This document shows positions 1,642 to 56,198 of a stretch of DNA of 64,000 nucleotides, piece after piece. A program made the translations under genes and the position numbers. Numbering within the stretch: position 1 is the first letter of the stretch; every line of letters starts with the position of its first letter. The stretch spans positions 2,480,001-2,544,000 of the forward strand of contig NZ_CP047357.1 of NCBI RefSeq assembly GCF_030408835.1. The letters run 5' to 3'. The notes under the pieces are model-generated. The model made no database searches. It worked only from the letters and a program-made list of their open reading frames with translations, and was not told the origin of the DNA. The DNA is from Corynebacterium freneyi. Lineage in GTDB: Bacteria > Actinomycetota > Actinomycetes > Mycobacteriales > Mycobacteriaceae.

Positions 1642-3996
1642 TTACTCCGCCTCGACCACCGAGTTCGCGCCCGCCGCATGGGCGAACAGCTTCGGCAGGG
1701 TGTCGCGCCATGCGGACTCCGCCTCGGACACCGGGATCTCGAAGGAAATGTCGCCACCGGACACGCGGATGACCTTCTCGTCATCGGCGGTCAGGACGCG
1801 GCCGATCTTCGCGAACGGCACGCCCACCTCGGCGGCACGGGCCTCCAGGTCCGCAGCGGCACCGGCCGGCACCGCGACCAAAGCGCGCGAGGCCGACTCC
1901 GAGAACAGGGCCACGAACGGGTCGGCGGAGACGTCGTCAAGCGAAACCTCGATGCCGACGCCCGACTGAGCCGCAGCCTCGACGATGGCCTGCGACAGGC
2001 CGCCCTCCGACAGGTCACGGGCGGCGGAGACGAAATGCTCGCCGCGGGACTCGATGGTGCCGTGGAAGAACTCCGTCAGCTTCTCCTCGTTGGCCAGGTC
2101 GATGGCCGGCGGCATGCCGCCCAACGCATCGTGGGCGACCTGCTGCCAGATCGAACCACCCAGCTCGTCGAAGGTCTCGCCGAGCAGGTACAGGACCTCG
2201 TCGGCGACGCCGTCCTGGGCGAGGCGGTTGCCGATCACCTTCTCCACGTCCTCGACGATGCCCAGCACCGCGATGACCGGGGTCGGCAGAATCGGCTCGT
2301 CACCGGTCTGGTTGTAGAACGACACGTTGCCGCCGGTGACCGGAACGTTGAGCTCCGCCGCACCATCGGCCAGACCGCGGACGGCCTCGGCGAACTGCCA
2401 CATGGCGTCCGGGTTCTCCGGGGAACCGAAGTTCAGGCAGTTGGACACCGCATACGGCATCGCGCCGGTGACCGACACGTTGCGGTGCGCCTCCGCCAAC
2501 GCCAGACGGGTGCCCGTGCGCGGATCGAGCTTGGTGTAGCGGCCCGACGCGTCGGTGGACACCGCCACGCCGCGACCGGTCTCCTCGTTGACGCGCAGCA
2601 CGCCGGCGTCGGCATCCTTCGCGGCGACCGTGTTGCCGCGGACGTACCGGTCGTACTGCTCGGTGATGTGCGCACGCGAGCACAGCGCCGGCGACGCCGC
2701 CAGATCGAGCACGGTCGCGCGCAGCTCATCGGACGAGGCCGGGCGGGCCAGATCCGGGGTCTGCTGCAGCGCATCCTGCCACTCGGGACGGGCGTACGGA
2801 CGGTGGTAGGTCGGGCCCTCGTCGGCGATGGTCTTCGGCGGGGCGTCGACGACGACCTTGCCGTCGTGGGTGACCACCAGGTTCTCGCCGTCGGTGACCA
2901 CGCCGATGTCGGACGCGATGACGTCCCACTTCGCGCAGATGGCCATGAACTCGTCCATGTTCTCCGGCTTCACCACGGCGCACATGCGCTCCTGGGACTC
3001 CGACGACAGGATCTCCGCGGCGGTCATGTTCTCGGCACGCAGGTGCACGTTGTCCAGGTTGATTTCCATGCCGCCGTCGCCGGCGGCCGCCAGCTCGGAC
3101 ACCGCGCAGGACAGGCCCGCGCCGCCGAGGTCCTGGATGCCGACGACGACGCCGGCCTTGTACAGGTCGAGGCAGCACTCGATGAGCACCTTCTCGGCGA
3201 ACGGGTCGCCCACCTGGACGGCCGGCAGCTTGCGCTCCGCGCCCTCCTCGAAGGTGTCCGACGCCAGCACCGACACGCCGCCGATGCCGTCGAGACCCGT
3301 GCGGGAACCGAAGAGCACCACGCGGTTGCCCGTGCCCGACGCGAACGCCAGGTGGAGGTCCTCCACCGGCAGCACGCCGACGCACAGGGCGTTGACCAGG
3401 GGGTTGCCGGCGTAGGACTCGTCGAACACGGTCTCGCCGCCGATGTTCGGCAGGCCCAGGCAGTTGCCGTAGCCGCCGACGCCGGCGACGACGCCCGGCA
3501 GCACTCGCTGCGTGTCCGGGGCATCGGCGGGGCCGAAGCGCAGCTGGTCCATCACGGCGACCGGGCGGGCGCCCATGGCCATGATGTCGCGGACGATGCC
3601 GCCGACGCCGGTGGCCGCACCCTGGTACGGCTCGACGTACGACGGGTGGTTGTGGGACTCCACCTTGAAGGTGACGGCCCAGCCGTCGCCGATGTCGACG
3701 ACGCCGGCGTTTTCGCCGATGCCCGCCAGCATCTTCTCCTTCATGGCGTCCGTGGTGGTCTCGCCGAAGTAGCGCAGGTGCACCTTCGACGACTTGTAGG
3801 AGCAGTGCTCCGACCACATCACGGAGTACATGGCCAGCTCGGCGTCGGTGGGGCGGCGGCCGAGGATCTCGCGGATGCGGGCGTACTCGTCCTCCTTCAG
3901 GCCCAGCTCGGCCCAGGGCTGGGCGAGGTCCGGGGTGGCGGCGGCGTTGTCGACGGTGTCGTCGTGGACGTTGGCGTGCGGGGTGTTGTCGGTCAT
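1642..3996 (-). CDS. purL: Phosphoribosylformylglycinamidine synthase subunit II
   Basis: ATP-dependent conversion of FGAR to FGAM in de novo purine synthesis, using ammonia delivered by PurQ with PurS as the bridging subunit. At 784 residues it is the small, separate PurL type of Gram-positives. It contains the AIRS-type N-terminal segment ([16 protein letters not shown] near residue 60, VESHNHPS near 115) and the duplicated C-terminal half. A strong AGGGAGGA ribosome site overlaps the purQ stop 13 bases upstream. It is last in the purS-purQ-purL operon and is followed by an intrinsic terminator. One copy of the window's over-represented 11-base word lies inside it at 1932-1942. Confidence 0.97.
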
Positions 3997-4009
3997 GTCG
4001 GTCCTCCCT

Positions 4010-4681
4010 TTACGCGCCGATGGTGGAAACGGCGGACAGGAACAGCTCGAGACCGTCGAGCGACGGGCCGGTCAACGCCTCGACGGCGTGCTCCGGGTGC
4101 GGCATGAGGCCCACGACGCGGCCGTCGGCGCTGCACACGCCGGCGATGTCGTTGATGGAGCCGTTGGGGTTTTCGACGTAGCGGAACACCACGCGGCCCT
4201 CCTCCTCCAGCTCGCGGATGGTCTCCGGGGCGGCCTGGAATCGGCCCTCGCCGTGCTTCGACGGGATGAGGATCTCCTGGCCGGCGGACAGCTTCGACGT
4301 CCACGCGGTGTCGGTGTTCTCAACCTTGAGGTGCAGGTCGCGGCACACGAAGTGCAGGCCCTCGTTGCGGGTCAACGCGCCCGGCAGCAGGCCGGCTTCG
4401 GTGAGGATCTGGAAGCCGTTGCAGATGCCCAGCACCGGCATGCCCTTGCCCGCGGCGTCGATGACGGACCGCATGACGGGGGCCAGCGCCGAGATGGCGC
4501 CGCTGCGCAGGTAGTCGCCGTAGGAGAAGCCGCCGGGCACGACGACGGCGTCGACGCCCTTCAGGTCGGCGTCGGCGTGCCACAGGTCGACCGACTCGGC
4601 GCCGGCCAGCCGGACGGCGCGGGCGGCGTCGACGTCATCGAGGGTGCCGGGGAAGGTGATGACGCCGATCTTGGCGGTCAC
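4010..4681 (-). CDS. purQ: Phosphoribosylformylglycinamidine synthase subunit I (glutaminase)
   Basis: Class I glutamine amidotransferase that hydrolyses glutamine and supplies ammonia to PurL. The 223-residue protein has the nucleophile elbow LGICNGFQ (Cys87) and the C-terminal His-Glu pair in MPHPEHAVE. Its ATG overlaps the purS stop by 4 bases, and its stop lies 13 bases before purL, so the three subunits are made from one mRNA in near-stoichiometric order. Confidence 0.97.
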
Positions 4682-4920
4682 TTGCCCTCCTCGCGGACGA
4701 CCTCGAAGTCCTCGATGACCGTGTTCGCCAGCAGGGTTTCCGCCAGGCGGTTGAGGTCCTCGTCGGTGACGGAGTCGTCGACCTCGAGCTCGAATCGCTT
4801 GCCCTGGCGAACGTCCGAGATTCCGGAGACGCCGATGCGTCCCAGGGCCCGGTGGACGGCCTGGCCCTGCGGGTCGAGGATCTCCGCCTTGGGCATCACA
4901 TTGACAACTACACGCGCCAC
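4678..4920 (-). CDS. purS: Phosphoribosylformylglycinamidine synthase subunit PurS
   Basis: Small structural subunit (80 residues) that bridges PurQ and PurL. The sequence begins [19 protein letters not shown] and continues with the conserved VRQGKRFEL segment, the usual PurS pattern. I chose the GTG at 4920 because AGGAG lies 7 bases upstream and the family starts here; the frame is open further upstream but that extension has no PurS-like sequence. First gene of the operon. Confidence 0.95.
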
Positions 4921-5030
4921 GTAAGTGCTCCTGTTGTTCGGTGGGAAGCCCCGCCTGGTCGCGGGACGCATTTCCGGGGTCAACTCTACTAGGCGGGGGC
5001 GGCGACCATTGCCGTCGCTATCCTGAGCCC

Positions 5031-5807
5031 ATGACCGACGCCGACCGTTCCCGCCGTTTCCGGCTCGCCCCCTGGCCGATTCTGCTGTTGTCCTTCGTTT
5101 TCGTCTTCGGCGCGGCGATGTCGGCGTGGGGGCCGGTCAACGTGTTGGCGTGGCGCGGGGGCGAGTTCCCGGACGTCGATCCCGAGCGGCCGACGTACCA
5201 GCAGCGGATCGCGGAGATCGGGCGGGAGCAGTACGGGGAGCAGCCCGACGGTGCGCGGTATTTCTCGCGGGGCGATGAGGCGGCGGTGCTTGACGACGGC
5301 TCATCGGCTCCGGAGGGGCGGTGGGATGCGGCTTTCGTGTCGTGGGTGCTCAACGAGGCCGGTCTGCCGGTGCGCCCCGAGACGGCGGGTGACGTCGATG
5401 CGTGGTTGATCGACGACCCGCTGGAGTTGGCCGGGGTGATGGCGGATCGGGGCGCGTACATCGACGCCGACGACGACCCGGAGTTCTCCCCGCAGATCGG
5501 CGACCTGATCTTCTACGACTACCCCGGCCCGTTCGGCCATCACGTCAACATCGTCGTGGCGGTGTCCGGCGACGTGGTCACCGTCGGCGGCGACGAACTC
5601 GGCCGCGTCGGGTTGGCCCGCATGAACCTGCGCAACCGCAGCGGAATCATGGGCTGGGGCGCGACCGGACGGTTGGAGGACCCGATCGCACCGGAACCGT
5701 CGGCGGCCCTGGGCGACGCGAACGACGCGAACGACGGCGAGTACGGGGAGGCCGACCCGGAGTTCGCATCCGATCCGACGGCTACACCGGCAGATGCTCC
5801 TCGATGA
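5031..5807 (+). CDS. Secreted CHAP/NlpC-like domain protein lacking the catalytic cysteine
   Basis: A 258-residue protein with an N-terminal membrane anchor or signal (about residues 13-35) and an extracytoplasmic domain that resembles CHAP cell-wall amidases: RWDAAFVSWVLNEAG, then IGDLIFYDYPGPFGHHVNIVVAV, then VGG. In active CHAP enzymes the first motif is W-C-A-A-F-V-S-W; here the cysteine position is Asp99, though the His region (His170/His171) remains. It may therefore be a non-catalytic wall-binding protein. Starts at ATG 5031, divergent from purS. Its 3' end overlaps the converging peroxidase gene by 26 bases. Family call moderate, loss of the nucleophile seen directly. Confidence 0.7.
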   Translation: MTDADRSRRFRLAPWPILLLSFVFVFGAAMSAWGPVNVLAWRGGEFPDVDPERPTYQQRIAEIGREQYGEQPDGARYFSRGDEAAVLDDGSSAPEGRWDAAFVSWVLNEAGLPVRPETAGDVDAWLIDDPLELAGVMADRGAYIDADDDPEFSPQIGDLIFYDYPGPFGHHVNIVVAVSGDVVTVGGDELGRVGLARMNLRNRSGIMGWGATGRLEDPIAPEPSAALGDANDANDGEYGEADPEFASDPTATPADAPR

Positions 5808-7084: not shown

Positions 7085-9217
7085 TCAGGCCGCCCCGGCC
7101 GCCCGCAGCAGCCACGCGTACTGGAACGCGGTCTCGCGCCACTTGGCGTAGCGGCCGGAGACGCCGCCGTGGCCCGCGCTCATCTCGGTCTTCAGCAAAA
7201 ACGGCCCCGATCCCTCGACGCCGCCGGCGACCTCGCGCAGCTTGGCAATCCACTTCGCCGGCTCCACGTACAGCACGCGGGTGTCGTTGAGGCTGGTCAC
7301 CGCCAGAATCGGCGGGTACTTCTTCGCCTCAACGTTTTCGTACGGGGCGTACGACGCCATGTAGTCGTAGACCTCCTCCTCATGGAAGGGGTCTCCCCAC
7401 TCGTCCCACTCCACCACCGTCAACGGCAGCTCGGGCATGAGCATCGACGTCAGCGGGTCGACGAAGGGCACGACCGCCTCGATGCCGGCGAACCGATCGC
7501 CCGCCATGTTCGCCACCGCGCCCATGAGCATGCCGCCGGCCGAACCACCGTCGGCGACCATGCGGTCCCGGGCGGTGATGCCGGCGTCGAGCAAGTCGTC
7601 GGCGACGTCGATGAAGTCGGTGAACGTGTTCTTCTTGGTCAACCCGCGGCCCTGCTCCCACCAGGCCCGGCCCATCTCGCCGCCGCCGCGGACGTGCGCG
7701 ATGGCGAAAATCATGCCGCGATCCAGCAGCGACAATCGCGCCACGGAGAAACCCGGGTCGATGGGCGCCTCATACGACCCGTAGCCGTACAGCAGCAGCG
7801 GATTCGGCACCGACGTGTCCAGGTCGGCGCGGCGCACCAGCGACACCGGCACCCTCGCACCGTCGCGGGCGGTGACCCACCGGCGCTCCGCCACGTAATC
7901 CGACGGCTCGTACCCGCCGCGCACGGGCTGACGCTTGAGCATCTCCCGCGCCCCGGTGGCCACGTCGAGCTGCCACACCTCCGTCGGCGTGGTGAACGAC
8001 CCGTAGGAAAAACGCAGCACCGGCGCCTCCCACTCCGGATTTCCCGCCGACGCCGCCGTGTAGAGCTCCTCCGGGAACTCGAGCTCGGAGAAAACCGGAT
8101 CGGCGTCGTCAAGCGAAGAACCGTCGAGCACCGACAGGGCGAGCCTGCCGATGCCGCCGGACCGGTACGCCACGACGAGGTGGCCGGCGAAGCAATCGAC
8201 GCCCTCGACGCGCACGTCGTCGCGGTGCGCGATGAGCTCGCGGAGGTCATCCACCGACTCGAAGGAACCGACCGGAACCGCGCCGAGGGCGAAATTCGGG
8301 CCCGTCATGTTGTGCGTGACCAGCCACACGTCCTCGCCGCCGATGACCGCATGATCCACGTCGTACTCGACGCCCCGCTCGCGCGGACGCACGCACGTCG
8401 GCTCCGCCGTCGGATCCGCGCACTCCAGGTACCAGGTCTCCGACGTGATCTTGGAGCCCGCCTCGAAGATCAGGTACTTCTCGCTGCGCGTCGTGCCGAC
8501 GCCCACCCAGTAGGCCTCGTCCGGCTCGTGGAAGACGCGCACGTCCTCCGATGCGGGCGTGCCGACGGCATGCCGCCACACCGAATCCGGCCGCCACGCC
8601 TCGTCGAGCCGCTGATAGAACAGGTGAGCCGAACCGACCCACGTGGCGCCCGCGGCGATGTCGGAGATGACGTCGTCGTACAGCTCGCCGGTGCGCAGAT
8701 CCTTGATGCGCAGCGTGTACCGCTCGTCGCCGACGACGTCCGTGGAATAGGCCAGCAGATTGCCGTCGACCGTGACCGACGCGGCGCCAAGCGAGAAGAA
8801 ATCATGGCCCTCGGCCAGCTCGTTGAGATCGAGCAGGATCTCCTCCCCCGGCACCGGCTCGCCAGGCGCGGCGTCCGGAATGGTCGGAGGGGTCCAGTCG
8901 TCGCCGTCGGCGCGCATGCGGCACGACAGCCCGTAGGACTTCCCCTCCAGGGTGCGCGAGTAGTACCACCAGTCGCCCGAACGCACCGGCACCGACATGT
9001 CGGTCTCCTGCACCCGGGACTTGATCTCGCCGAAAATCGACTCCGTCAGATCGCCGAGATCCGCAGTCATCGCGTCGGTGTGCGCGTTTTCCGCGTTGAG
9101 GTGCGCGATCACCTCCGGATCGGACTTGTCGCGCAACCACTCGTAGTCGTCGACGAACTCCCGCCCGTGATGGGCGCGGACGTGGGGGCGGCGGGCGGCG
9201 ACGGGGGCTTCGGTCAC
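7085..9217 (-). CDS. ptrB: Oligopeptidase B-type serine peptidase (S9A)
   Basis: Prolyl-oligopeptidase-family enzyme of 710 residues, expected to cleave small peptides after basic residues. The N-terminal two thirds form the seven-bladed propeller gate; the C-terminal hydrolase has the nucleophile in [11 protein letters not shown] (Ser near 557), the acid in [12 protein letters not shown] and the catalytic His in [11 protein letters not shown]. The GTG start at 9217 overlaps the purC stop (GTGA), giving coupled translation. Typical family length and motifs. Confidence 0.9.
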
Positions 9218-11764: not shown

Positions 11765-13117
11765 ATGGCAGACAAGTACCAGGAACTGGTCAACGGCGGT
11801 CCGCTCACGGGCGTCGCCAAGTCCCTCGGCCTTCCCCAGCCCCCGCACCTGCGCCGCCACAAGCCCGGCGAGCCGCTGCTGAAGAACGACAAGGTCCTCG
11901 TGACCGGTTCCGGCGCCGACGCCGACGCCGTCGCCAAGCAGCTCGGCGAGTGGGACCTGAACGTCCGCCGCGACCAGGCCGGCGACGACAAGGTCGGCGC
12001 CATCGTGGTCGTGGTCACCGAGGCCAAGCGCCCGAAGGAGCTGCAGGGCCCGGTCCTCAACGCCGCGAAGCACCTGCGCAAGCTGGACAAGGGCGGCCGT
12101 TTCATCGTGATCTCCCGCGCCAAGGCGGAGCACGGCACCGACATCGACGTCGCGCTCAACGCCACCCGCGGCGGCGTCGAGGGTCTGGTCCGTTCGATGG
12201 GCCACGAGGTCCGCGGCGGCTCCACGGCCAACGGCATCCTCGTCCACGACGGCGTCGACGTCACCGCCCCGTCGGTGGTCGCGTCGCTGCACTTCTTCCT
12301 TTCGGGTCGTTCGGCGTTCGTCGACGGCCAGTTCCTCACCGTGTCCTCCTCCGCCGGCGAGATCCCGGCCGACTGGGACAAGCCGCTGGCCGGCAAGGTC
12401 GCGGCGATCACCGGTGCGGCCCGCGGCATCGGCGCGGCCATCGCCCGCCAGATGAAGGCCGACGGCGCTGACGTCATCGTCATCGACGTGCCCCCGGCCG
12501 GCGATGCGCTGTCGAAGGTCGCCAACGAGCTCGGCGGCCTGGCCCTGCAGCTCGACATCACCTCCGACGACGCCGGCAACCGCATCGCCGACGCCGCGAA
12601 GCAGCGTTTCGGCAAGCTGGACATCGTGGTGCACAACGCGGGCATCACCCGTGACAAGATGCTGGCGAACATGGACGAGGCCAAGTGGGGCTCGGTCATC
12701 GCCGTCAACATCGAGGCGCAGCTGACCATGAACGAGCAGCTGCTGAAGCACGAGGCGTTCCAGAAGTCGCCGCGCATCGCCACGATGGCGTCGACGTCGG
12801 GCATCGCGGGCAATCGCGGCCAGACGAACTACGCCACGTCGAAGGCCGGCGTGATCGCGATGGTGGAGGCCACCGCCGACCGCGTCGCGTCGATGGGCGG
12901 CAACATCAACGCCGTCGCCCCGGGCTTCATCGAGACCGACATGACCGCGGCGATTCCGTTCGTCAACCGTCAGGTCGCGCGTCGCGTGAACTCGCTGCAG
13001 CAGGGCGGTCAGCCGGGTGACGTCGCGCAGGCGATTTCGTTCCTGGTCTCCGACCGTGCGCTGGGCGTCAACGGCGAGGTTCTGCGCGTGTGCGGTCAGA
13101 ACATCGTGGGCCAGTAA
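11765..13117 (+). CDS. fabG4: High-molecular-weight 3-oxoacyl reductase (FabG4-like)
   Basis: Short-chain dehydrogenase with an extra N-terminal Rossmann-like domain (450 residues, versus about 250 for ordinary FabG). The N-terminal half has a degraded nucleotide-binding site; the C-terminal half has AAITGAARGIGAAIA, HNAGITRDKM, the catalytic NYATSKAG and APGFIETDM. Expected to reduce 3-oxoacyl-CoA or -ACP with NAD(H). It begins 60 bases after fadA2, behind a TTTAGGAGCATCTGAC leader with a clear ribosome site, and precedes htdX by 12 bases. Confidence 0.9.
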   Translation: MADKYQELVNGGPLTGVAKSLGLPQPPHLRRHKPGEPLLKNDKVLVTGSGADADAVAKQLGEWDLNVRRDQAGDDKVGAIVVVVTEAKRPKELQGPVLNAAKHLRKLDKGGRFIVISRAKAEHGTDIDVALNATRGGVEGLVRSMGHEVRGGSTANGILVHDGVDVTAPSVVASLHFFLSGRSAFVDGQFLTVSSSAGEIPADWDKPLAGKVAAITGAARGIGAAIARQMKADGADVIVIDVPPAGDALSKVANELGGLALQLDITSDDAGNRIADAAKQRFGKLDIVVHNAGITRDKMLANMDEAKWGSVIAVNIEAQLTMNEQLLKHEAFQKSPRIATMASTSGIAGNRGQTNYATSKAGVIAMVEATADRVASMGGNINAVAPGFIETDMTAAIPFVNRQVARRVNSLQQGGQPGDVAQAISFLVSDRALGVNGEVLRVCGQNIVGQ

Positions 13118-13129: not shown

Positions 13130-14041
13130 ATGACTGAAGCCAAGATCCTGTCCGAGGTTCCGTCGCTGGTTCCGCTGTACGCGAAGGCGGCGACGGGCGG
13201 CGCGCGTTCGAATCGGACGTCGAAGCTGAAGACCCCGGCTCTGGCGGTCAAGGGCGTGAAGGTGTCGGCGTCGCGCGACGAGGACTTCCGTCGCGTCGCC
13301 GGTGCCCCGCCGGTCGATCATGTTGCCAATTCGGCGTTCTTCGGCCACGTGCATGCGTTGATCATGCCGTTGCAGATGGAGTTGATGGCGGCCGATGATT
13401 TCCCGCTGCCGATGATGGGTCTGATCCACACGTCGAACACGTACCGCCAGCTCAAGCCGGTTCCGGTGGGTGCGGACGTCGACGTGGAGGTCCGTGTGGC
13501 GGGTTTCCGCGCGCACCGTTCGGGCACGGAGGTCGTGCACGAGGCGACCGTGTCGCGTGACGGCGAGGTGCTGGTCGAGGAGACCTCGGTGTACCTGGCC
13601 AAGGGCAAGAAGCTTGACGACGTCGAGCCTCTCGACGATTCGGCCGGCCAGTCCAAGCGGCCGCAGTTCAAGGTACCGCGTCCGACGGCGCAGTGGCGCA
13701 TTCCGGGTTCGATCGGTCGCACGTGGGCGAAGGTGTCCGGCGACTGGAACCCGATTCACGTCACGGGCCTGACGGCGAAGGCGCTGGGCATGCCGGGCGT
13801 CGTGGCGCACGGCATGTACACCGCGTCGCGCGCGTTGGCGGAGTCCGATGTGCCGGGCGGCGCCCCGTTCGAGTTCCACATCGACTTCGGCGCCCCGGTG
13901 ATCGTTCCGGCGACGGTGATGGTCGCCATCACCCGCGCCGGCGAGGTCGTCGACGGCGTGGGCCGCGGCGGCACCGACATCGTGGCCTGGGACCGCAAGA
14001 AGCGGCGCCCGCACTTCACGGGTCACGTGCGGGACGTGTAG
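13130..14041 (+). CDS. htdX: MaoC-like 3-hydroxyacyl dehydratase (HtdX-like)
   Basis: Double-hotdog MaoC dehydratase of 303 residues: an N-terminal degenerate hotdog and a C-terminal hydratase domain with GDWNPIHVTGLTAKALG and GVVAHGMYT (Asp and His of the active site). It should dehydrate the product of FabG4. It ends with a basic tail, DRKKRRPHFTGHVRDV. The last 70 bases of this gene (13972-14041) recur in altered form at 18723 and 22239. A strong terminator follows. Confidence 0.88.
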   Translation: MTEAKILSEVPSLVPLYAKAATGGARSNRTSKLKTPALAVKGVKVSASRDEDFRRVAGAPPVDHVANSAFFGHVHALIMPLQMELMAADDFPLPMMGLIHTSNTYRQLKPVPVGADVDVEVRVAGFRAHRSGTEVVHEATVSRDGEVLVEETSVYLAKGKKLDDVEPLDDSAGQSKRPQFKVPRPTAQWRIPGSIGRTWAKVSGDWNPIHVTGLTAKALGMPGVVAHGMYTASRALAESDVPGGAPFEFHIDFGAPVIVPATVMVAITRAGEVVDGVGRGGTDIVAWDRKKRRPHFTGHVRDV

Positions 14042-14227: not shown

Positions 14228-15433
14228 ATGAATCCGACGCATCCTCCGGCCCCGCGCCCCGCACTCGACGGGGAGGGCCCGGACACCGGACGCCTCGCCA
14301 TGAGCCGCCGAACGGCCCTCCGCTCCGCGCTCATCCTCCTCGGTGGCAGCGCCCTCGCGCTCACCGGCTGCTCGACCCGCGACACCCACGCCGCCGACGC
14401 CGCCTCCGGCACCGCCGATGCCCCGGCCAACGGCAAGGGCCCGACGATCACCGACCAAAAGGGCCGCACCGTCTCCTTCGATGCCCCCGTGGAGCGCATC
14501 GCCACCACCGTCATTCCGGCGCCATCGATGATCATCGCCGCCGACCAGGGCATCTCCAAGATCGTCGCCGTCAACCGCGCCAGCCAGATGCAGGCGAAGA
14601 ATGGACTGCTCGCCGAGATGTTCCCCGAAATCATGGATCTTCCCATCGCCGCCGCAGGCAACGATTTCGTGCCGAACATCGAAACCATCGCCGCCCAGAA
14701 CCCGGACGTCGTCATTCAGTGGGCCCATATGGGCGACGAGATCATCACCCCTATCGAGCAAGCCGGTCTCGAGCTTCTGCTCATCATCTACGGCACCCAG
14801 GAGGACCTCGAGTACTGGGTGGAGATGTTCACCGAACTCGTCGGAAAGCCGGAACGGGGAGAGAAAATCCTGGCCGACATGCACCGCGACCGCGCCGCAG
14901 TGGAGAAGGCGGTGGGGACCGCGCACCGCCGTCCCCGCGCCGTCAACCTGTTCAACTACGACGAAATGCAGGTCTCCGGAACCGAGTCGTACATGGACTT
15001 TTGGCTCACCCTCTGCGGCGCCGACAACGTTGGAACCAAGGCCGGGCCCGGTTCCTCGGTGAAGGTCTCCCGCGAAGAGCTGCTCGCGTGGGATCCGGAG
15101 GTGGTGTTCATCGGGAACTTCTCCCCCGCCACCCCGGAGGACATGTACGGCGACCCCTTCTTCGCCGAAATGTCGGCGGTGAAGAACAAGCGCGTCTACA
15201 AGATCCCCAACGGCGGCTTCGCCTGGGATCCGCCGAGCAATGAATCCAACCTCATGTGGCAGTGGGCCGCGAAACTGCTCCACCCCGAGACCGCCGATTT
15301 CGACCTCCGACGGGCCATGAAGGACTCCTATTCCTTCCTCTACGACCACGAGCTGACCGACGAACAGATCGACCGGGTCCTCGCCGTCGACGCCAACTCG
15401 GGGAGCGCAAACTATGACGCGTTCACTCGTTAA
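14228..15433 (+). CDS. Iron/siderophore ABC transporter substrate-binding lipoprotein
   Basis: Class III (helical-backbone) periplasmic-type binding protein, about 401 residues, that captures a ferric siderophore or haem for the permease behind it. The N terminus carries a Tat-like lipoprotein signal: twin arginine in MSRRTALRS, hydrophobic stretch, and lipobox ALTGC (Cys48). The mature part has the usual ITDQKGRTVSFDAPVERI opening. ATG 14228 has AAAGGA upstream at a long spacing; ATG 14192 and ATG 14300 are alternatives. Overlaps the permease gene by 20 bases. Confidence 0.88.
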   Translation: MNPTHPPAPRPALDGEGPDTGRLAMSRRTALRSALILLGGSALALTGCSTRDTHAADAASGTADAPANGKGPTITDQKGRTVSFDAPVERIATTVIPAPSMIIAADQGISKIVAVNRASQMQAKNGLLAEMFPEIMDLPIAAAGNDFVPNIETIAAQNPDVVIQWAHMGDEIITPIEQAGLELLLIIYGTQEDLEYWVEMFTELVGKPERGEKILADMHRDRAAVEKAVGTAHRRPRAVNLFNYDEMQVSGTESYMDFWLTLCGADNVGTKAGPGSSVKVSREELLAWDPEVVFIGNFSPATPEDMYGDPFFAEMSAVKNKRVYKIPNGGFAWDPPSNESNLMWQWAAKLLHPETADFDLRRAMKDSYSFLYDHELTDEQIDRVLAVDANSGSANYDAFTR

Positions 15434-16545: not shown

Positions 16546-17313
16546 ATGATTGAAGCCCGAAATCTCGGCTTCCGTTTCGGCGGCGGCCCGTGGGTGTTCC
16601 GCGGGCTCGACGTGACCGTGGAGCCTTCGTCCATCACGTCGTTGCTCGGCTCCAATGGCGTCGGCAAGTCGACGCTGCTGCGGTTGCTGGCCGGAATCTC
16701 CGAACCGTCGGAGGGCTCGGTGTCCACCCGGGGGCAGATCGGCTTCGTGCCGCAGGCGACGGCCGGTGTCTTCCCCTACCTCGTGTCCGACATGGTCCTC
16801 ATGGGCAGGGCACGGCAATTGAGCATGTTCTCCCAACCTGGCGCCGAGGACCGCAGGATCGCCGCCGAGGCCCTGGACCGGGTGGGCATGGCCCATCTGG
16901 CGTCGCGGCCGTTCACCGGTCTGTCCGGCGGACAGCAGCAGCTGATCCTCATCGCCCGCGCACTGGCCACCGGGTGCGACACCCTCATCCTCGACGAGCC
17001 GGTATCTGCACTCGACCTGCGCAATCAGGCGCTGGTGCTGGAACTGCTCTCCAATCTACGGCACGAGGGCCTGGCCGTCGTCCTGTCCACCCACAGTCCC
17101 GAGCACGCCCTCCACCTCGGGGGCCAGGCGCTCGTCCTCGACCCGTCGGACGGGCTGCGGGCCGGCCCCGCCGACGAATTGCTTTCCGACGACGTGCTCA
17201 CCCGCTTGTACGGCATCGACCTGTTCCGCGTCACCGTCCCCGACGGCGAACGCCCGCGGAACATCGTCGTCACGCGATACGAGGGCGTGCGCGACGCCGT
17301 CGCCGTGTCCTGA
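16546..17313 (+). CDS. Iron-siderophore ABC transporter ATPase
   Basis: Nucleotide-binding subunit of 255 residues powering the FecCD-type importer. Walker A LGSNGVGKSTLLRL, signature LSGGQQQ, Walker B LILDEP and the switch His in LSTHSPEHAL are all present. GGGGAAAACCC lies before the ATG. Same operon as the binding protein and permease, under the DtxR-like boxes. Confidence 0.94.
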   Translation: MIEARNLGFRFGGGPWVFRGLDVTVEPSSITSLLGSNGVGKSTLLRLLAGISEPSEGSVSTRGQIGFVPQATAGVFPYLVSDMVLMGRARQLSMFSQPGAEDRRIAAEALDRVGMAHLASRPFTGLSGGQQQLILIARALATGCDTLILDEPVSALDLRNQALVLELLSNLRHEGLAVVLSTHSPEHALHLGGQALVLDPSDGLRAGPADELLSDDVLTRLYGIDLFRVTVPDGERPRNIVVTRYEGVRDAVAVS

Positions 17314-31417: not shown

Positions 31418-31559
31418 TTCCGTGTCCTCCCAATCCCCGATGAATCCGAGGACCGGCACCACGATCGGCGGTGCGCACCCCCGTCATCGTCATATGTCGC
31501 GGGCGATGTCGCCGCCCGCAGGTTCGTCGTAAAGCTCCGTGAATCCGACGCCGCCCGAA

Positions 31560-38567: not shown

Positions 38568-38579
38568 CTGCTCCCCCGC

Positions 38580-43875: not shown

Positions 43876-44610
43876 TCACCTCCGCGCGGCGAACTTCTCC
43901 AGTTCGTCGACGGGCCCGGCGGCGATGACGAGGTCACCGGCCCGGAGCACGTCATCTGCGATGGCCCGTCGGAAAGCCTCGCCGCGCGGGCGGATGGCCA
44001 GGATCTGCACCGGGGAATCGCCGCGGGCGTTGACCTCGCCGACGCGGTGGTCGAGCACGGACACCGGTGGCGCGATCTTCGCCACGGCGAAGCCCCGCTC
44101 GAATTCGGCGTACTCCTGCACCTTGCCGCCCATGAGGTGGGCCACGCGCCGCCCCATGTCCGACTCGGGTCGGATGACGTGGTGCACGCCGATCTGGCCG
44201 AGGATCTTCGCGTGCGCCTGGTTGTCCGCCTTCGCCCAGACGCTGGGCACGCCCATGTCCACGACCGCCGAGGCGGTGAGCACCGACGCCTCGATGTTGG
44301 ATCCGATGGCGATGACCACGCGCCCCGCGTCCGCGACCCCCAGTTGGCGCAGCGCCTCGGGGTTGGTGGTGTCGGCGGTGACCACGTGGTCGAAGGTGGT
44401 CGCGCATTCCTGCACGACCCGGGGGTCGGCGTCGACGCACAGCACTTCGACGCCGCCGTCGACGAGTTCTTCGCCGAGGGCCTGGCCGAAGCGGCCCAGG
44501 CCGAGGATCACGACGAGTCCCGAGCCCGGCTCGGAGCGGTGTCCGTGGTGGGACACGGATTCGGCGGTTTCGTCTGCCGCGCGGTGTCCGCGGCGGAATG
44601 CGTTAGCCAA
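43876..44610 (-). CDS. ktrA: TrkA/KtrA potassium-channel regulatory subunit
   Basis: Cytoplasmic RCK protein (244 residues) that gates the KtrB channel. It has a Rossmann NAD/ATP site VVILGLGRFGQALGEEL, the acidic end of strand 2 (VLCVDADP) and a C-terminal RCK_C domain. A 30-residue basic, His-rich leader precedes the first strand. It overlaps ktrB by 8 bases, so the two are coupled. Confidence 0.92.
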   Translation of the reverse strand: MANAFRRGHRAADETAESVSHHGHRSEPGSGLVVILGLGRFGQALGEELVDGGVEVLCVDADPRVVQECATTFDHVVTADTTNPEALRQLGVADAGRVVIAIGSNIEASVLTASAVVDMGVPSVWAKADNQAHAKILGQIGVHHVIRPESDMGRRVAHLMGGKVQEYAEFERGFAVAKIAPPVSVLDHRVGEVNARGDSPVQILAIRPRGEAFRRAIADDVLRAGDLVIAAGPVDELEKFAARR

Positions 44611-46015: not shown

Positions 46016-47200
46016 CTATTTTCCGTTGAATTCGCCGATGCGCCGACAGGCCTCGGCCATATCCTCCGTCGATCCGGCGAAGCACAGCCGCACCCACCGG
46101 TGGCCGGACACGGTGTCGAAGTCGACGCCCGGCGCGACGGCGACTCCGGTGGCGTCGAGAAGCCCCCTCGCCCAGGTCAACGAATCATCGGTGAGGTGCG
46201 AGACGTCGGCGTAGATGTAGAAACCCCCGTCCGGCGGGGCGAACGTGCCCAACCCGGCGTCGGGAAGCCGCTCGATGAGCAGTTCGCGGTTGGCGGCGTA
46301 GCGGCGCACATGCCCGTCGAGCTCGGCGATGGACTCCGGGTGGAACGCCTCGATGGCCGCGACCTGCGACACCGCGGGCGGGCACACCGTCAGGTTCGCC
46401 GCCAGCCGGTCGCAGGGGCCGCGCAGCCATTCGGGGATGATCAACCAGCCGACGCGCCACCCCGTCATGGAGTGGTACTTGCTCACCGACCCCACGACGA
46501 CGGCGGCGTCGCTGAACTCCCGGGCGCTGACGCATTCGCGGCCGTAGGAAATGCCGTGGTAGATCTCGTCGCTGACCAGCAGGACGTCGTTTTCCTCGCA
46601 CCAGCGGGCGATGCGTCCGAGCTCGTCGGCGTCGATGATGGTGCCGGTCGGGTTGTCGGGGCTGGTCACGATCACCGCCCGCGGCGTCCGCTCCAGCCCT
46701 TCGAGCAGTTCGACGGTGAGCTGGAACCGCGTCTCCGGCCCGCAGTCGATCTCCACGACGTTGGCGCCCAACGCCTTGAGCGTGTTCCGGTACGCCGGGT
46801 ACCCCGGCCGCGCCAGGACGATGCCGTCGCCGGGATCCAGCGCCGCCAGGAACAACGTCACGAACCCACCGGACGAGCCCGTCGTGACCACCACGTCCTC
46901 CGGCTCCACCGCCCGGTACGTCCGCGCTCCGTCGGCTCCCCCGCGCGCGGCCATCCGCCGGTTGTGGTCATCGGCGATCGCGCGCTTCAACTCCGGAATG
47001 CCGGTCGCCTCGGTGTACCCGAGAATCTGCGACCCCACCGCCGACTGCACCGCCTCCAGCGCCCGCCGCGGCGCGGGCGTCGACGGCTGCCCCGCGCACA
47101 GGAACAGCGCGTCGCCATGCGTCCGTTGCCTTTCCTGCGCCGCCGCCAACACATCCATCACGTGGAACGGGGCTACGTCGGACCGCTTCGAAGGCATCAT
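46016..47200 (-). CDS. Class I/II PLP-dependent aminotransferase
   Basis: A 394-residue fold-type I aminotransferase: TTGSSGGFVTLFLAA, the VTSPDNPTGTIID loop, LVSDEIYHGI (PLP Asp) and the lysine in VVVGSVSKYHSMTGWRVGW. Most similar in style to aspartate/aromatic aminotransferases, but the substrate cannot be told from sequence alone. It sits between purD and ktrB, 99 bases after purD. Confidence 0.88.
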   Translation of the reverse strand: MMPSKRSDVAPFHVMDVLAAAQERQRTHGDALFLCAGQPSTPAPRRALEAVQSAVGSQILGYTEATGIPELKRAIADDHNRRMAARGGADGARTYRAVEPEDVVVTTGSSGGFVTLFLAALDPGDGIVLARPGYPAYRNTLKALGANVVEIDCGPETRFQLTVELLEGLERTPRAVIVTSPDNPTGTIIDADELGRIARWCEENDVLLVSDEIYHGISYGRECVSAREFSDAAVVVGSVSKYHSMTGWRVGWLIIPEWLRGPCDRLAANLTVCPPAVSQVAAIEAFHPESIAELDGHVRRYAANRELLIERLPDAGLGTFAPPDGGFYIYADVSHLTDDSLTWARGLLDATGVAVAPGVDFDTVSGHRWVRLCFAGSTEDMAEACRRIGEFNGK

Positions 47201-47299
47201 GACCCCAGCTTATCGCTGCATGACGCCGCCCCCGTCCCCAGGTTGCACGACCCGGAGGCGGGGGCGTCGTCAAGCAAAAAACGGCGCGGGCGCCGACCG

Positions 47300-51012: not shown

Positions 51013-51797
51013 AGCCGCTGCTGCTGGCCTTCCCGCCGACGGGTTTCATCCCCGACGGCGTGCTCGACGTCTCGGCCGCATCCGCCGCCCCGCTCGCCGA
51101 GCCGCCGACCGCACCACCCGTCGTTTGCCTGCACGGGACGGTGGCCAACGGCGGCAATTGGGCGGCGTTGGCGCAGTTGTTGCTCGCACGGGGGCGTGTG
51201 GTGGTGACACCGACGTACGGCAATCGGGGCACGGCGCCGCTGGCGGACAATCGTGCGGAGGTCACCCGCATCGTCCGCCGCACCCTCGAGTTGACGGGTG
51301 CCGACCGGGTGGACCTGGTCGGGCACTCGCAGGGCGGACTGTTGGCGGGTCTGGTGGTCGCGGATGCGCTTGACGACGACGTCGTCCGCCGCGTCATCTG
51401 CCTGTCGGGGACTCACCGCGGGGTGCGCATGCCCCGTGGGGTGCCGATGTCGGCGATCTCGGCGACATTCGGGCCCGCGTTGGCCGATCAGGTCCGCCTT
51501 CGACGGCAGCTGCTCGCCGGGTCGGGGCTCCCCGAGGTCGCGCGGGCGGTCCGCGACCGCCTCAACGCAGACGGCGCCGCCGGCGGCACCGTTGGCGATG
51601 GTGCCCGGCTACCCCGGTGGTTCGACCTGGTCAGCGACGCCGACCACGTCGTGCCGCCCGACTGCGCGCTCACGCCCGACGAATACCCGGGCGCGACGAC
51701 GATCCGTCTGGAGGACCGCCTCGGCCGCGGGGTGGCCCACCACCTGCAGCCCCACGACCGCGGCGTCGCCGGGCTGGTCGCGGAGCTGCTGGGCTGA
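51009..51797 (+). CDS. Second lipase-like alpha/beta hydrolase
   Basis: A 262-residue hydrolase paralogous to the preceding gene: VVCLHGTVANGGNW, nucleophile LVGHSQGGLL (Ser107), CLSGTHRG, an acid in LVSDADHVVPP and His in VAHHLQPHDR. It lacks the acidic tail. GTG 51009 overlaps the previous stop. One copy of the 11-base word is inside it (51368). Substrate unknown. Confidence 0.82.
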   Translation: MKPLLLAFPPTGFIPDGVLDVSAASAAPLAEPPTAPPVVCLHGTVANGGNWAALAQLLLARGRVVVTPTYGNRGTAPLADNRAEVTRIVRRTLELTGADRVDLVGHSQGGLLAGLVVADALDDDVVRRVICLSGTHRGVRMPRGVPMSAISATFGPALADQVRLRRQLLAGSGLPEVARAVRDRLNADGAAGGTVGDGARLPRWFDLVSDADHVVPPDCALTPDEYPGATTIRLEDRLGRGVAHHLQPHDRGVAGLVAELLG

Positions 51798-51830: not shown

Positions 51831-53570
51831 CTAAGGCCGGGGAATGTTGCGCAGGTTGGTGCGCGCGAGTTCGACCATCTTGCCCACGCCGCCGTCGAGG
51901 ACGGTGCGCACGGAGGCCTTGGTGAACCCGGCGACCTGCTCGAGCGAAATCTCCGGCGGAATCGACAGGGCGTCGGCGTCGGTGACGACGTCGACGAGCA
52001 CCGGCCCGTCGAATGCCAGGGCGTCGGCGAGCTGCTCGCGCAGGCGCGTCGGGTCGGTGATGCGCACCGACCGCATGCCCAATGCGGAGGCGACGGCCGC
52101 GTAGTCGACGTCGTCCTGGTCGGTGCCGAAGTCGGGCATGCCCTCGACGAGCATCTCCAACTTCACCATGCCCAGCGACGAGTTGTTGAACACGATGGTC
52201 TTCACCGGCAGGCCGTTGCGACGCACGGTGAGCAGTTCGCCGAGCAACATGGACAGGCCGCCGTCGCCGGACATCGAAATCACCTGGCGGTCGCGGTCCG
52301 GGCCCTGGGCGCCGATGGCGTGCGGCAGGGCGTTGGCCATGGTGCCGTGGCGCCACGAACCGAGCACCCGGCGGCGGCCATTGGGGGTGATGTAGCGGGC
52401 GGCCCACACGTTGCACATGCCGGTGTCGACGGTGAACACCGCGTCGTCGTCGGCGAGTTCGTCGAGCACGCGGGCGACGTACTCGGGGTGGATGGGGGTC
52501 TTGTCCTCGATGCCGCTGGTGTACGCCTCGATGACGTGCTCGAGCTGGCGTTCGTGGTGGCGGAGCATCTTCACCAGGAAGGAGTCGTCGGTTTTCTCGG
52601 CGACGAGCGGCAGCAGGGCGCGGACGGTTTCCCCGACGTCGCCGTGGACGGGGTGGGCGACGGTGGTGCGGCGGCCGAGGTTGGCGGCGTTGGCGTCGAT
52701 CTGCGCGACGTTCTTCGTCGGCAGGAAGTCGGTGTAGGGGAAATCGGTGCCGATCATGATGAACAGGTCGGCGTCGTCCATCGCCTTCTGCAACCCGCCG
52801 TAACCCAGCAGGCCGGACATGCCCACGTCGTGGGGGTTGTCGTGCTGGATGATCTCCTTGCCGCCGAGCGAATGCCCGACGGGCGCGTTGAGGCGGCGGG
52901 CCAGCGCGAGCACGTCGTCGCGTGCGCCGGCGGCACCCGCGCCGACCATGAACGTCACCGTGTCGGCGTCGTTGATGGCCCGGGCCAGGTCGTCCACCTG
53001 GGCGGGGTCGGGCTTGACGACGCCTGCGGCCGGCACGATCGTCGACCCCAGGGCGGGCACGTCGACGGCGTCCTCGGCCGCCAGATCACCCGGCATGACC
53101 AGCACCGACACGCCATTTCCCGCCATCGTCGACTGGATCGCCCCGTGCAGGACCTTCGCGCCCTGCTCGGCCGAATTGACCATCTCGCAGTAGCCGGAGC
53201 ACTCGCCGAAGATCTGCTCCGGGTGCGTCTCCTGGAAGAAGGAGGACCCGATCATCTGCGACGGGATGTGCGATGCGATCGCCAACACCTTGGCGCCGTT
53301 GCGGTGCGCGTCGTAAAGCCCCTGGATCAGGTGCGTGTTGCCGGGGCCGCACGACGCGGCGCACACCGCCAACCCACCCGTGATCAGCGACTCCGCACCC
53401 GCGGCGAACGCGGCGGACTCCTCGTTGTGGACGTGCACCCACTCGATGTCGTCGCTGCGGCGCACCGCGTCGACGACCGGGTTGAGGCTGTCGCCGACCA
53501 ACCCGTAAATGCGCCGCACCCCCTGCGCCGCGAGGGTCTCCACCAGTTGACGTGCGTAGTTTCCGCTCAT
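51831..53570 (-). CDS. pqo: Pyruvate:menaquinone oxidoreductase
   Basis: TPP- and FAD-dependent enzyme converting pyruvate to acetate and CO2 with electrons to menaquinone at the membrane. The 579-residue length equals the C. glutamicum enzyme. N-terminal IYGLVGDSLNPVVDA and HNEESAAFAAGAE (TPP Glu), FAD domain in the middle, C-terminal GDGGLSMLLGELL and VFNNSSLGM for Mg-TPP. ATG 53570 is chosen for its AGGCGGA site and family start. Confidence 0.94.
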   Translation of the reverse strand: MSGNYARQLVETLAAQGVRRIYGLVGDSLNPVVDAVRRSDDIEWVHVHNEESAAFAAGAESLITGGLAVCAASCGPGNTHLIQGLYDAHRNGAKVLAIASHIPSQMIGSSFFQETHPEQIFGECSGYCEMVNSAEQGAKVLHGAIQSTMAGNGVSVLVMPGDLAAEDAVDVPALGSTIVPAAGVVKPDPAQVDDLARAINDADTVTFMVGAGAAGARDDVLALARRLNAPVGHSLGGKEIIQHDNPHDVGMSGLLGYGGLQKAMDDADLFIMIGTDFPYTDFLPTKNVAQIDANAANLGRRTTVAHPVHGDVGETVRALLPLVAEKTDDSFLVKMLRHHERQLEHVIEAYTSGIEDKTPIHPEYVARVLDELADDDAVFTVDTGMCNVWAARYITPNGRRRVLGSWRHGTMANALPHAIGAQGPDRDRQVISMSGDGGLSMLLGELLTVRRNGLPVKTIVFNNSSLGMVKLEMLVEGMPDFGTDQDDVDYAAVASALGMRSVRITDPTRLREQLADALAFDGPVLVDVVTDADALSIPPEISLEQVAGFTKASVRTVLDGGVGKMVELARTNLRNIPRP

Positions 53571-53698: not shown

Positions 53699-54541
53699 TC
53701 AGTACTTGCCCAGCGACTCCCGGGCGTCGATGACCTCGGCACGCAGCGACATCGCGGCGGACCCCGGATTATCGGACGTCAACGCCTCGATGACGACGTC
53801 GGGCAGCCCCGCCGCCCGGTAGTCGTCCAGCGTCACCGCACCGTACTCGAGCACCCCGTCGAGCCACGCGACGGCGCGGGCCTCGGGTCGCACGCATCGA
53901 CGGGCCATGCGCTCATGCTCGGTCAACAGCTCGCGGTGCTCCGCCCCACGCAACCCCAGACGGGCCAGCGTGCGGCCCGCGGCGATGAGGTTCTCGCCCG
54001 CGACGTGCTCGATCTGCGCCGGATTCGGCGGCGGCTTGCCCACGCCCCGCCGGCGCACGTACAGGTCCTGCTGCCCGATGCCGACGATCCCGCCGTCCTT
54101 GTCCCGGATGACGGACGTGTAGGGGACGACCGTCGAAAAGCCGCCCTCGGTCTCCGCCAGGATCTGCTCGATCAGCTCATCACTGGCCTCCACGTCCAGG
54201 TAGGCGCCGCGACGACCCGGTCGGATGTACTCGAACGAACCCGTACGCGTCCACGCCTCGTAACGGTCGACGCCCAGGCGCTGCATGACCAGCGTGCCGA
54301 AAAGCACATCCGTCATGGAAAACAGCGTGCCGCCGAACGCCGCACCATGCATGTTCGCGTTGAGGCGATTGAGGCGCAGCTCCAGATGACCCCGCGACCA
54401 GTCATCCGCGATGTGCGTGATGCGGATGCCCATCGCGATCAGCGGCGGCCACGCATTGAGCAGATGGCGCAGACGGTTGGGCGTCAGCTTCGTTCCCGCG
54501 GCGTTGACGAGCACGCGACGGAGAGATGGTCCCATTTTCAT
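53699..54541 (-). CDS. DUF4442 hotdog thioesterase-like protein
   Basis: A 280-residue protein whose first 150 residues form a PaaI/DUF4442 hotdog domain (NRLNANMHGAAFGGTLFSMTD, FGTLVMQRLG). In DUF4442 proteins this pocket binds acyl-CoA. The C-terminal 120 residues are an unassigned extension (ERMARRCVRPEARAVAWLDG). Substrate unknown; single gene 128 bases upstream of pqo. Confidence 0.7.
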   Translation of the reverse strand: MKMGPSLRRVLVNAAGTKLTPNRLRHLLNAWPPLIAMGIRITHIADDWSRGHLELRLNRLNANMHGAAFGGTLFSMTDVLFGTLVMQRLGVDRYEAWTRTGSFEYIRPGRRGAYLDVEASDELIEQILAETEGGFSTVVPYTSVIRDKDGGIVGIGQQDLYVRRRGVGKPPPNPAQIEHVAGENLIAAGRTLARLGLRGAEHRELLTEHERMARRCVRPEARAVAWLDGVLEYGAVTLDDYRAAGLPDVVIEALTSDNPGSAAMSLRAEVIDARESLGKY

Positions 54542-55063: not shown

Positions 55064-55150
55064 CTTTACGCACCCTGCCTTCCGCATGATCGGAATATTC
55101 GGATTCCCCGTGCGGGCGCATGTCGCCGCAGCGGTGGCGGCGGAGACGGT

Positions 55151-55183
55151 GCCGGTGCGATGCCGGTGCGATGCCGGTGCGAC
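55151..55183 (+). repeat. Three tandem 11-bp units
   Basis: GCCGGTGCGAT is repeated twice exactly and a third time with one change, in the 218-base gap before the phosphatase-fold gene. Likely prone to slippage. Confidence 0.85.
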
Positions 55184-55281
55184 GACCCCCGGTCGCCCCC
55201 TTCCGTCCGCGCCCCAGCATAGGTGCTTTCGACATGTGCAGCACCCGGAGCAGCCGGCGCGGGGAATCGGGTGCGGGCGAG

Positions 55282-56013
55282 TTACGGCTCCGCGGACCAG
55301 AGGGTGACGATCGACCCGTCTTCGGCGGTGCAGCGCAGCACCTTCTCCGCGACCGGACGGCACCGGTAGGCGTGGCCGGCGGCGTTGACGTCGCGGGCGG
55401 TGCCCAGCAGATCGCCGTCGCCGTCGGCCATGATCAGCGCGCCGGTCAACCGCAGCGCGTCGGCGCACAGGCGCTCGGAGTCGGCTGCGGTGGCGTCACC
55501 GTCGGCACCGGCCTCGAGGGTCACGCCCACGTGGCTGAGGCCGAACCCATTGCCGGTGAGGCACACCAGGACGTCCTCGCCCTCGATCTCGATGACGTCG
55601 CCCTGCACGGCGTAGCCGGTGCGGCCACTGCTGCCCTTGCCGGACTCGGGGGTCGGCGAAGGAGCATCGGCTCCACCAGCACCGGCGTCACCGGCACCGC
55701 CGCCGTCACCGGAATCGCCGTCGGCATCGGCCGCGCCGCCATCGCGTCCCGCCGAGGACCCCGGCGCCGACGATCCGGACGACGAGGAGCCGAAGAAGGT
55801 GGACTCGTAGGCGACCTCCGAAGCGTCGTCGGCGCCGCCGGAGTTCTGCCCCACCGCGGCCCCGACGAAGAACCCGCCGCCGGCGAGCACGAGGGCCCCC
55901 AACACCGCGCCCACGACGGTCCGCGCCGTACGACGCCCGCCGTCAACGCCGTCGGCCGCCGAAATGACTGCGGGCTTCCTGGCGATGATGTTGTCAGAGT
56001 CGTTGTCCGACAT
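55282..56013 (-). CDS. Single-pass membrane protein with acidic Gly/Ser linker, unknown
   Basis: A 243-residue protein: short cytoplasmic part, one helix (VVGAVLGALVLAGGGFFVGAA, about residues 34-54), a long low-complexity Asp/Gly/Ser/Ala linker, and a small C-terminal extracytoplasmic domain with four cysteines (VLVCLTGNG, RLCADALR, YRCRPVAEKVLRC) that could form two disulfides. GGAGGA precedes ATG 56013. I do not recognise the domain; possibly substrate of the Dsb-like system at the window start. Confidence 0.7.
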   Translation of the reverse strand: MSDNDSDNIIARKPAVISAADGVDGGRRTARTVVGAVLGALVLAGGGFFVGAAVGQNSGGADDASEVAYESTFFGSSSSGSSAPGSSAGRDGGAADADGDSGDGGGAGDAGAGGADAPSPTPESGKGSSGRTGYAVQGDVIEIEGEDVLVCLTGNGFGLSHVGVTLEAGADGDATAADSERLCADALRLTGALIMADGDGDLLGTARDVNAAGHAYRCRPVAEKVLRCTAEDGSIVTLWSAEP

Positions 56014-56198
56014 GCGTCCTCCCTGGTTCTCGCGCCGGCGGGGTGGGGTCGTCACCCCACTTGAGCACGCTCCAGCTTACGCCAAAACCAATAACGGAAG
56101 AAACGCAAGTGACGGATGTGACCAACGAAAGCCCTCCCCCGAGCGCACGAAACACCTCCGGCGATCGGGGAAGGGCGGCCGTCGTCAAGCAAAAACGG

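Follow-up and report, generated by a model that had tools for sequence, protein, structure and literature searches.

Background

The DNA uptake sequences (DUS) of the Neisseriaceae occur in very many copies, form inverted pairs at gene ends and come in dialects with a shared core (PMC3630211). The uptake signal sequence (USS) of the Pasteurellaceae occurs approximately 1,300 times in H. influenzae, with pairs of opposite orientation in terminators (PMC5217627). In Micrococcus luteus, transformation needs Flp/Tad pili and the genome has comEA and comEC (PMC6370729). For Corynebacterium, a survey of spaced motifs gives, in the part available to us, patterns related to clustered regularly interspaced short palindromic repeats (CRISPR) for three species and no other pattern for the genus (PMC5217627). 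Here, we analyze a stretch of 64,000 nucleotides of Corynebacterium freneyi (positions 2,480,001-2,544,000 of the single 2.88-Mb contig NZ_CP047357.1; hereafter the window) together with its source genome, labeled G000, and its relatives. We describe an abundant bipartite word, CGTCG-NN-AAGC, that is probably a DNA uptake sequence of Corynebacterium with several dialects.

The evidence is genomic, and an uptake bias, natural competence and a receptor are postulated from it. Among the matches listed by full-text searches of the open-access literature, judged by titles and beginnings of abstracts and with subscription papers largely outside their reach, none describes this word or any Corynebacterium uptake sequence.

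Results

Definition and abundance of the word

An earlier note on the window had listed 11 exact copies of the 11-base word GCTTGACGACG. Ten of its positions were correct; 12 copies were found over both strands, the copy at 53012-53022 having been missed and the one placed at 22734 starting at 22724. The note's expectation of far less than one copy by composition was borne out by 100 dinucleotide shuffles of the window, which gave a mean of 0.03 and a maximum of 1. In the whole genome GCTTGACGACG occurs 487 times (247 and 240 by strand), against 13 (7 and 6) for the reversed pattern. The word as first described is therefore real and enriched genome-wide, but it is one spacer variant, the TC form, of the fuller word CGTCG-NN-AAGC, which has 36 copies in the window (Table 1) and, genome-wide, 1,720 (859 and 861 by strand; one per 1.7 kb), against 119 (52 and 67) for its reversed control. 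Frequent k-mers across 110 loci (80 named) led to related words, and an unbiased scan of 77 loci with 5-mer/2-base-gap/4-mer patterns ranked CGTCG-NN-AAGC top in 24 loci, CATCG-NN-AAGC in two and CGTCA-NN-AAGC in one.

Detailed counts of motifs, genes and spacings were made in 864 kb of the genome. A spacer of two bases is strongly favored, with 561 copies versus 9-64 for each of 11 other spacers. Single-base variants of the arms have 1-51 copies each, except at the two A's of AAGC, where GC-richer forms reach raw counts, without background control, of 104, 142 and 198. The two spacer bases are loose yet non-random (TC 167, TA 80, CA 55, down to TT 3), and the flanks of the 11 bases carry weak preferences alone, for G at -1 and A at +12. 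The motif is asymmetric and non-palindromic. The word is thus present in hundreds to thousands of copies per word-bearing genome, far over the expectation from composition and codons, which is one of the features by which uptake sequences are recognized.

Codon-aware nulls and siting of the copies

Genes were called with a simple in-house caller (744 genes). The 561 copies comprise 421 genic, 134 intergenic and 6 overlapping gene ends, while intergenic DNA makes up 11% of the sequence. Synonymous shuffling within genes predicts 67 genic copies (standard deviation (SD) 5.5) and a context-preserving synonymous shuffle 77 (SD 5.8); a match to such a codon-aware background, which the earlier note had named as grounds for dropping its claim, is not seen. 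Two reading frames are preferred, with 231 and 118 of the 421 genic copies. Among genic GCTTGACGACG copies in the window, seven out of ten read Leu-Asp-Asp with CTT, a codon that is indeed rare (3.1% of Leu codons). The copies described as antisense are three rather than two, since the copy at 53012 joins those at 22724 and 25518 in carrying CGTCGTCAAGC on the coding strand. Selection on the DNA word and not on the peptide, as the note proposed, agrees with the codon-aware nulls, with the use of several frames and of intergenic DNA, and with arms that are kept around a changeable spacer (see below).

Intergenic copies behind genes lie at a median of 43 bp from the nearest stop, versus 75 bp for positions drawn at random from the same intergenic gaps (n = 101), and two intergenic GCTTGACGACG copies, at 47265 and 56180, do directly follow stops. 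Strands are balanced in each of three segments (113/115, 88/77 and 90/78). The GC skew is mostly positive in two of these and mostly negative in one, so that both replichores are probably covered; the word is spread over both strands without polarity. Spacing between copies is nearly random (mean 1,540 bp, coefficient of variation 1.1). The order within 35 neighboring pairs at a distance of up to 100 bp is biased: 25 read GCTT..CGACG and then CGTCG..AAGC (binomial p 1e-8), 5 show the opposite inversion and 5 are direct. The favored order occurs in 12 intergenic, 11 genic and 2 mixed pairs, and several close pairs flank, by eye, hairpin-like inverted repeats. Over-representation between genes, proximity to stops and inverted order in close pairs are further features shared with uptake sequences.

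Conservation against C. xerosis

The nearest named genome found is that of C. xerosis (PurB 96% identical, aligned DNA 84.9% identical). In an alignment of 219 kb, with 60 permuted words as control, the arms are unchanged in all nine bases at 104 of the 138 sites from C. freneyi and at 104 of the 151 from C. xerosis, versus 62 of 165 control sites. Arms are kept with an altered spacer at 26 of the 104 motif sites and at 12 of the 62 control sites. Judging by this alignment, constraint falls on the arms.

Distribution and dialects in the genus

CGTCG-NN-AAGC has 280-1,891 copies in 89 of 121 Corynebacterium genomes and 8-134 in the other 32. In six of these low-count genomes it is replaced by CATCG-NN-AAGC (CGTCG/CATCG copies: G006, 97/1,021; G077, 28/680; G097, 64/213; G118, 35/736; G129, 90/974; G135, 92/1,080), and 26 of the 121 genomes show neither form clearly. 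G108 is borderline (63/159), and in G065, G086 and G144 the CGTCG form is approximately twice its reversed count. For CATCG the reversed pattern is an imperfect control, as most genomes have CATCG a few-fold above it (66 versus 13 in C. freneyi). Counts for named species were taken in the genomes of the 38 loci searched; those at background level include C. jeikeium, C. falsenii, C. suicordis, C. phocae, C. spheniscorum, C. glyciniphilum, C. variabile and C. macginleyi. CATCG occurs 6 times in the 21-kb C. macginleyi locus. The environmental species C. pollutisoli, which is not known to cause disease, is motif-rich, with 1,582 copies. In C. ulceribovis, CGTCA-NN-AAGC occurs 41 times in 100 kb, versus 1.4 expected, with 22 CGTCG copies alongside and 343 in all; this form is not raised in any of the 121 Corynebacterium genomes. 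No clear enrichment was seen in 149 genomes of the order that lie outside the genus, the maximum being approximately 1.7 times the genome's own reversed control. The word therefore exists in lineage dialects with a shared core, in which CGTCG, CATCG or CGTCA arms are joined to AAGC, another feature of known uptake sequences.

On a midpoint-rooted tree of one gene, PurB (77 rows, 17 open forks, word labels by thresholds of our own), the xerosis-amycolatum-ulceribovis group, which carries the word, is separated from the rest of Corynebacterium. This position suggests that the word is ancestral, that it was lost in the jeikeium-variabile-falsenii group and that the dialect changed in the macginleyi group.

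Two other repeats were seen in these loci. GGCGTCAAAA has 11 copies, versus 0.15 expected, in L070, L080, L082 and L083 of the C. jeikeium group; these loci are orthologous, so that the count is not independent. Tandem, operator-like palindromes of the type CTTAC..GTAAG (L072 3770-3820, L064 3751-3800, L057 3481-3520) recur at roughly matching positions in the glyciniphilum-variabile group and, considered as a wider word, proved local.

Dialect change in place and a further word

At 73 aligned CATCG sites of G006, G004 reads CGTCG in 41 and CATCG in 7, with 0 of 53 exchanges for permuted control words; the 67 CGTCG sites of G004 read CATCG in 41 and CGTCG in 6 cases in G006. The 41 changes are synonymous in 34 cases, Val to Ile in 5 and intergenic in 2. 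With the motif set picked by its state in G006, GAC-to-GAT changes affect 38 of 44 Asp codons (86%) in motifs, versus 60 of 93 (65%) in matched context (p 0.008); overall the change affects 42% of 867 Asp codons. The CATCG word greatly exceeds its codon null in G006 (78 versus 9.9, SD 2.2). The named 21-kb loci gave small numbers, with none usable in C. ulceribovis. Taken together, there is modest support for sites that followed the new word in place.

G010 (L207-L221, L167), which is without CGTCG-NN-AAGC, has 106 copies of TGGCGTCG in 320 kb versus 27 by a Markov model; its genic copies number 85 versus 27 (SD 5) by codon shuffling, the strands are balanced (50/56) and the 3' flank is A-rich. 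A weaker excess of GGCGTCG-R is present in G033 (L222-L226, L170; 33 versus 8 and 31 versus 7.5), and no comparable word stands at the head of the over-represented list of G030. As the CGTCG core recurs in TGGCGTCG, the word may have been reshaped around this core, and not lost, in some word-less species.

Scarcity in phage DNA

The longest motif-free stretch, 28.7 kb, lies almost wholly inside a prophage outside the window (G000:C1:908592-947728, L117-L119; 39.1 kb as bounded, GC content 0.681). Eight of its proteins have PHROGs assignments: integrase, RecT-like protein, single-stranded DNA-binding protein, terminase, portal, major head, minor tail and endolysin. The prophage has 2 copies of the word versus 23-25 expected at host density, and phage Stiles of C. 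xerosis has 3 in 42.8 kb (GC content 0.677). Both are close to the host in GC content, so composition alone does not produce the motif. The prophage endolysin is 97.6% identical to that of Stiles over 95% of its length; among the matches listed, a terminase-based search for phages gave phages of other hosts.

Uptake machinery

All 61 genomes searched for ComEC, including 37 of Corynebacterium, gave a match. Among the 121 Corynebacterium genomes, DprA is present in all, the Tad-type ATPase domain T2SSE in 118 (115 above the cut-off) and the ComEA-like SLBB domain in 113 (93 above the cut-off); the latter adjoins comEC in C. freneyi. In the Tad locus of C. freneyi, proteins similar to TadZ, TadA, TadB, TadC and TadE are encoded together with a small pilin and another small protein; apart from the T2SSE match, these names were assigned by reading. 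The host thus encodes uptake machinery, as uptake by the word would need, and so do word-less genomes; similar Tad loci in word-bearing and word-less relatives indicate that the machine is general. The best T2SSE match begins no earlier than profile position 10 in 18 of 26 word-less versus 3 of 95 word-bearing genomes, which follows phylogeny, as does an apparent fusion of TadB and TadC in G030, G015 and G033 (L168, L169 and L170; by reading gene calls). In these three word-less genomes the T2SSE matches also start late in the profile. At G001:C4:524862-525658, ComEC appears in two overlapping pieces, as if frameshifted; this genome has 1,618 copies of the word.

Copies in the window

All copies in the window are listed in Table 1. 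The gene run at 24950-38861 is presumably a cluster for a [NiFe]-hydrogenase that includes hyp maturation genes.

Table 1. Copies of CGTCG-NN-AAGC in the window, with the strand on which the word reads in this orientation
Form	Position	Strand	Location	Remark
CGTCG-CA-AAGC	1487..1497	-	intergenic	
CGTCG-TC-AAGC	1932..1942	+	genic	GCTTGACGACG on - strand
CGTCG-TC-AAGC	5288..5298	-	genic	GCTTGACGACG on + strand
CGTCG-TC-AAGC	8104..8114	+	genic	
CGTCG-CC-AAGC	11929..11939	+	genic	
CGTCG-TC-AAGC	13612..13622	-	genic	
CGTCG-GA-AAGC	14839..14849	+	genic	
CGTCG-GA-AAGC	17181..17191	-	genic	
CGTCG-AC-AAGC	21934..21944	-	genic	
CGTCG-TC-AAGC	22724..22734	-	genic	on coding strand, Val-Val-Lys
CGTCG-TC-AAGC	25518..25528	-	genic	on coding strand, Ser-Ser
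CGTCG-TC-AAGC	25991..26001	+	genic	
CGTCG-AC-AAGC	28954..28964	+	genic	
CGTCG-TA-AAGC	31525..31535	+	intergenic	
CGTCG-AA-AAGC	32147..32157	+	genic	
CGTCG-TC-AAGC	34056..34066	-	genic	
CGTCG-GC-AAGC	34845..34855	+	genic	
CGTCG-CG-AAGC	37256..37266	+	genic	
CGTCG-TA-AAGC	38086..38096	-	genic	
CGTCG-AG-AAGC	38246..38256	+	genic	
CGTCG-AG-AAGC	38741..38751	+	genic	
CGTCG-AG-AAGC	39620..39630	-	genic	
CGTCG-GA-AAGC	43967..43977	+	genic	
CGTCG-AG-AAGC	46153..46163	+	genic	
CGTCG-GG-AAGC	46258..46268	+	genic	
CGTCG-TC-AAGC	47265..47275	+	intergenic	~25 bp after stop of gene 47300-48619; predicted hairpin (no shuffle control)
CGTCG-TC-AAGC	51368..51378	-	genic	
CGTCG-TC-AAGC	53012..53022	-	genic	on coding strand, Val-Val-Lys
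CGTCG-TA-AAGC	53309..53319	+	genic	
CGTCG-AA-AAGC	54131..54141	+	genic	
CGTCG-TC-AAGC	56180..56190	+	intergenic	right after stop of gene 56199-58073
CGTCG-TA-AAGC	58277..58287	-	intergenic	
CGTCG-AC-AAGC	59073..59083	+	genic	
CGTCG-CA-AAGC	60286..60296	+	intergenic	
CGTCG-GA-AAGC	61802..61812	+	genic	
CGTCG-GC-AAGC	62462..62472	+	genic	

Discussion

Density, inverted pairs at gene ends, dialects on a kept core and the presence of uptake genes match the DUS of the Neisseriaceae and make an uptake sequence the most likely function of CGTCG-NN-AAGC. The earlier note had put this at the head of its possible roles, and the inverted pairs, the proximity to stops, the lineage dialects and the scarcity in phage DNA appear to fit it. 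Under this model, a DNA receptor at the cell surface, which may be a Tad/Flp minor pilin or a ComEA partner, would grip both arms across approximately one helical turn; the pilus would draw in word-bearing DNA, ComEA and ComEC would transfer a single strand into the cell, where DprA and RecA would recombine it. Preferential uptake of word-bearing alleles would spread the copies by biased recombination, and they would settle where their cost is least: in codon frames that tolerate them and, close to the ends of genes, in inverted pairs. When the receptor preference shifts in a lineage, the sites would follow, giving the CGTCG, CATCG and CGTCA dialects.

Several observations weigh against an uptake sequence. 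ComEC is also present in all 24 genomes examined from other families, and ComEC, the ComEA-like SLBB protein, the TadA-type ATPase and DprA, all nearly universal, occur with and without the word and do not explain it as a cause; in the comparison of these four, no specificity factor or receptor was found to co-vary with the word. Much of the CGTCG-to-CATCG exchange is general GAC-to-GAT drift. The number of close pairs equals chance (34 versus 35 expected), their order alone being biased. The scarcity in phage DNA rests on one prophage and one phage, and it would suit any old chromosomal site. Finally, no report of natural competence in Corynebacterium was found among the matches listed in the literature, judged by titles and beginnings of abstracts.

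The main rival is that the word is the binding site of a sequence-specific nucleoid or chromosome-organizing protein particular to Corynebacterium. It shares with an uptake sequence the high density, strand symmetry, nearly random spacing, kept arms and scarcity in phage DNA, but a housekeeping protein would need to have switched its specificity in at least two lineages, with hundreds of sites changing in its wake, 26 of 121 genomes show neither form clearly, and inverted pairing at gene ends would hardly be expected of such a site; we consider this explanation unlikely. A link to DNA modification, in which the word would be a methyltransferase target kept or spread by some route, has a precedent in HIP1, an iterated word linked to methyltransferases (PMC4390886). 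The two dialect changes would moreover both amount to a C-to-T exchange at CpG on one of the strands, the change produced by deamination. Our word is, however, non-palindromic, and deamination alone does not maintain a new word at the excess over the codon null seen for CATCG in G006, which leaves this option quite improbable.

A recombination or segregation signal, such as Chi or the FtsK orienting polar sequences (KOPS), could also be a frequent chromosomal word that is scarce in phage DNA. The strand symmetry, both genome-wide and in the three segments, speaks against the chromosome-orientation motif and the Chi-like signal that the earlier note had proposed, and RecC (PF04257) was found in 0 of the 121 genomes, in a search that had AdnAB and AddAB outside its scope. 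A Chi site of RecBCD was rejected on these two grounds, and we regard signals of this class as very unlikely. Least credible of all are copies as by-products of codon usage, transcription terminators or a dispersed mobile repeat: two frames are favored and some copies lie in or beside hairpins, but the codon nulls account for a small part of the genic copies, 421 of the 561 copies are inside genes, and past the 11 bases the sequence shows weak preferences alone. An artifact of codons or composition is ruled out by the shuffles and codon nulls.

With an uptake sequence as the preferred explanation, we lean slightly toward a wider proposal: a third, independently evolved code for self-DNA, in the form of a bipartite word of a Gram-positive actinobacterial genus, read by a receptor through a Tad/Flp pilus. 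The word would date back to the origin of the genus, its dialect switches may keep species from exchanging DNA, as mating barriers, and some word-less species would have a reshaped word on the CGTCG core, such as TGGCGTCG in G010. An uptake sequence with dialects in Corynebacterium would be the first outside two Gram-negative families, the Neisseriaceae and Pasteurellaceae, as far as our searches reach, a third case and in another phylum. Such species would be predicted to be naturally transformable and the word on donor DNA to raise uptake, which would help with species that resist transformation, and the receptor could be findable by comparison of dialects. The genus would also provide a natural experiment on the origin, change and fading of uptake words.

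Compared to described systems, the Corynebacterium word resembles cyanobacterial HIP1 in being a very frequent chromosomal word that is low in some relatives (PMC4390886), whereas HIP1 is palindromic and linked to orphan methyltransferases and the Corynebacterium word is asymmetric with dialects. Corynebacterium has a gene set similar to that of Flp/Tad-dependent competence in M. luteus, for which the available part of the report mentions no uptake word (PMC6370729). With the USS of the Pasteurellaceae it shares the copy number and the pairs in opposite orientation, and it differs in word and phylum; uptake of the USS is established experimentally, whereas that of the Corynebacterium word is predicted. 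It also resembles the DUS of the Neisseriaceae, which is read by the minor pilin ComP, in copy number, inverted pairs at gene ends and dialects on a shared core. The Neisseria DUS is continuous, whereas the Corynebacterium word is bipartite with a loose 2-base spacer and belongs to an actinobacterial host with a Tad/Flp-type locus.

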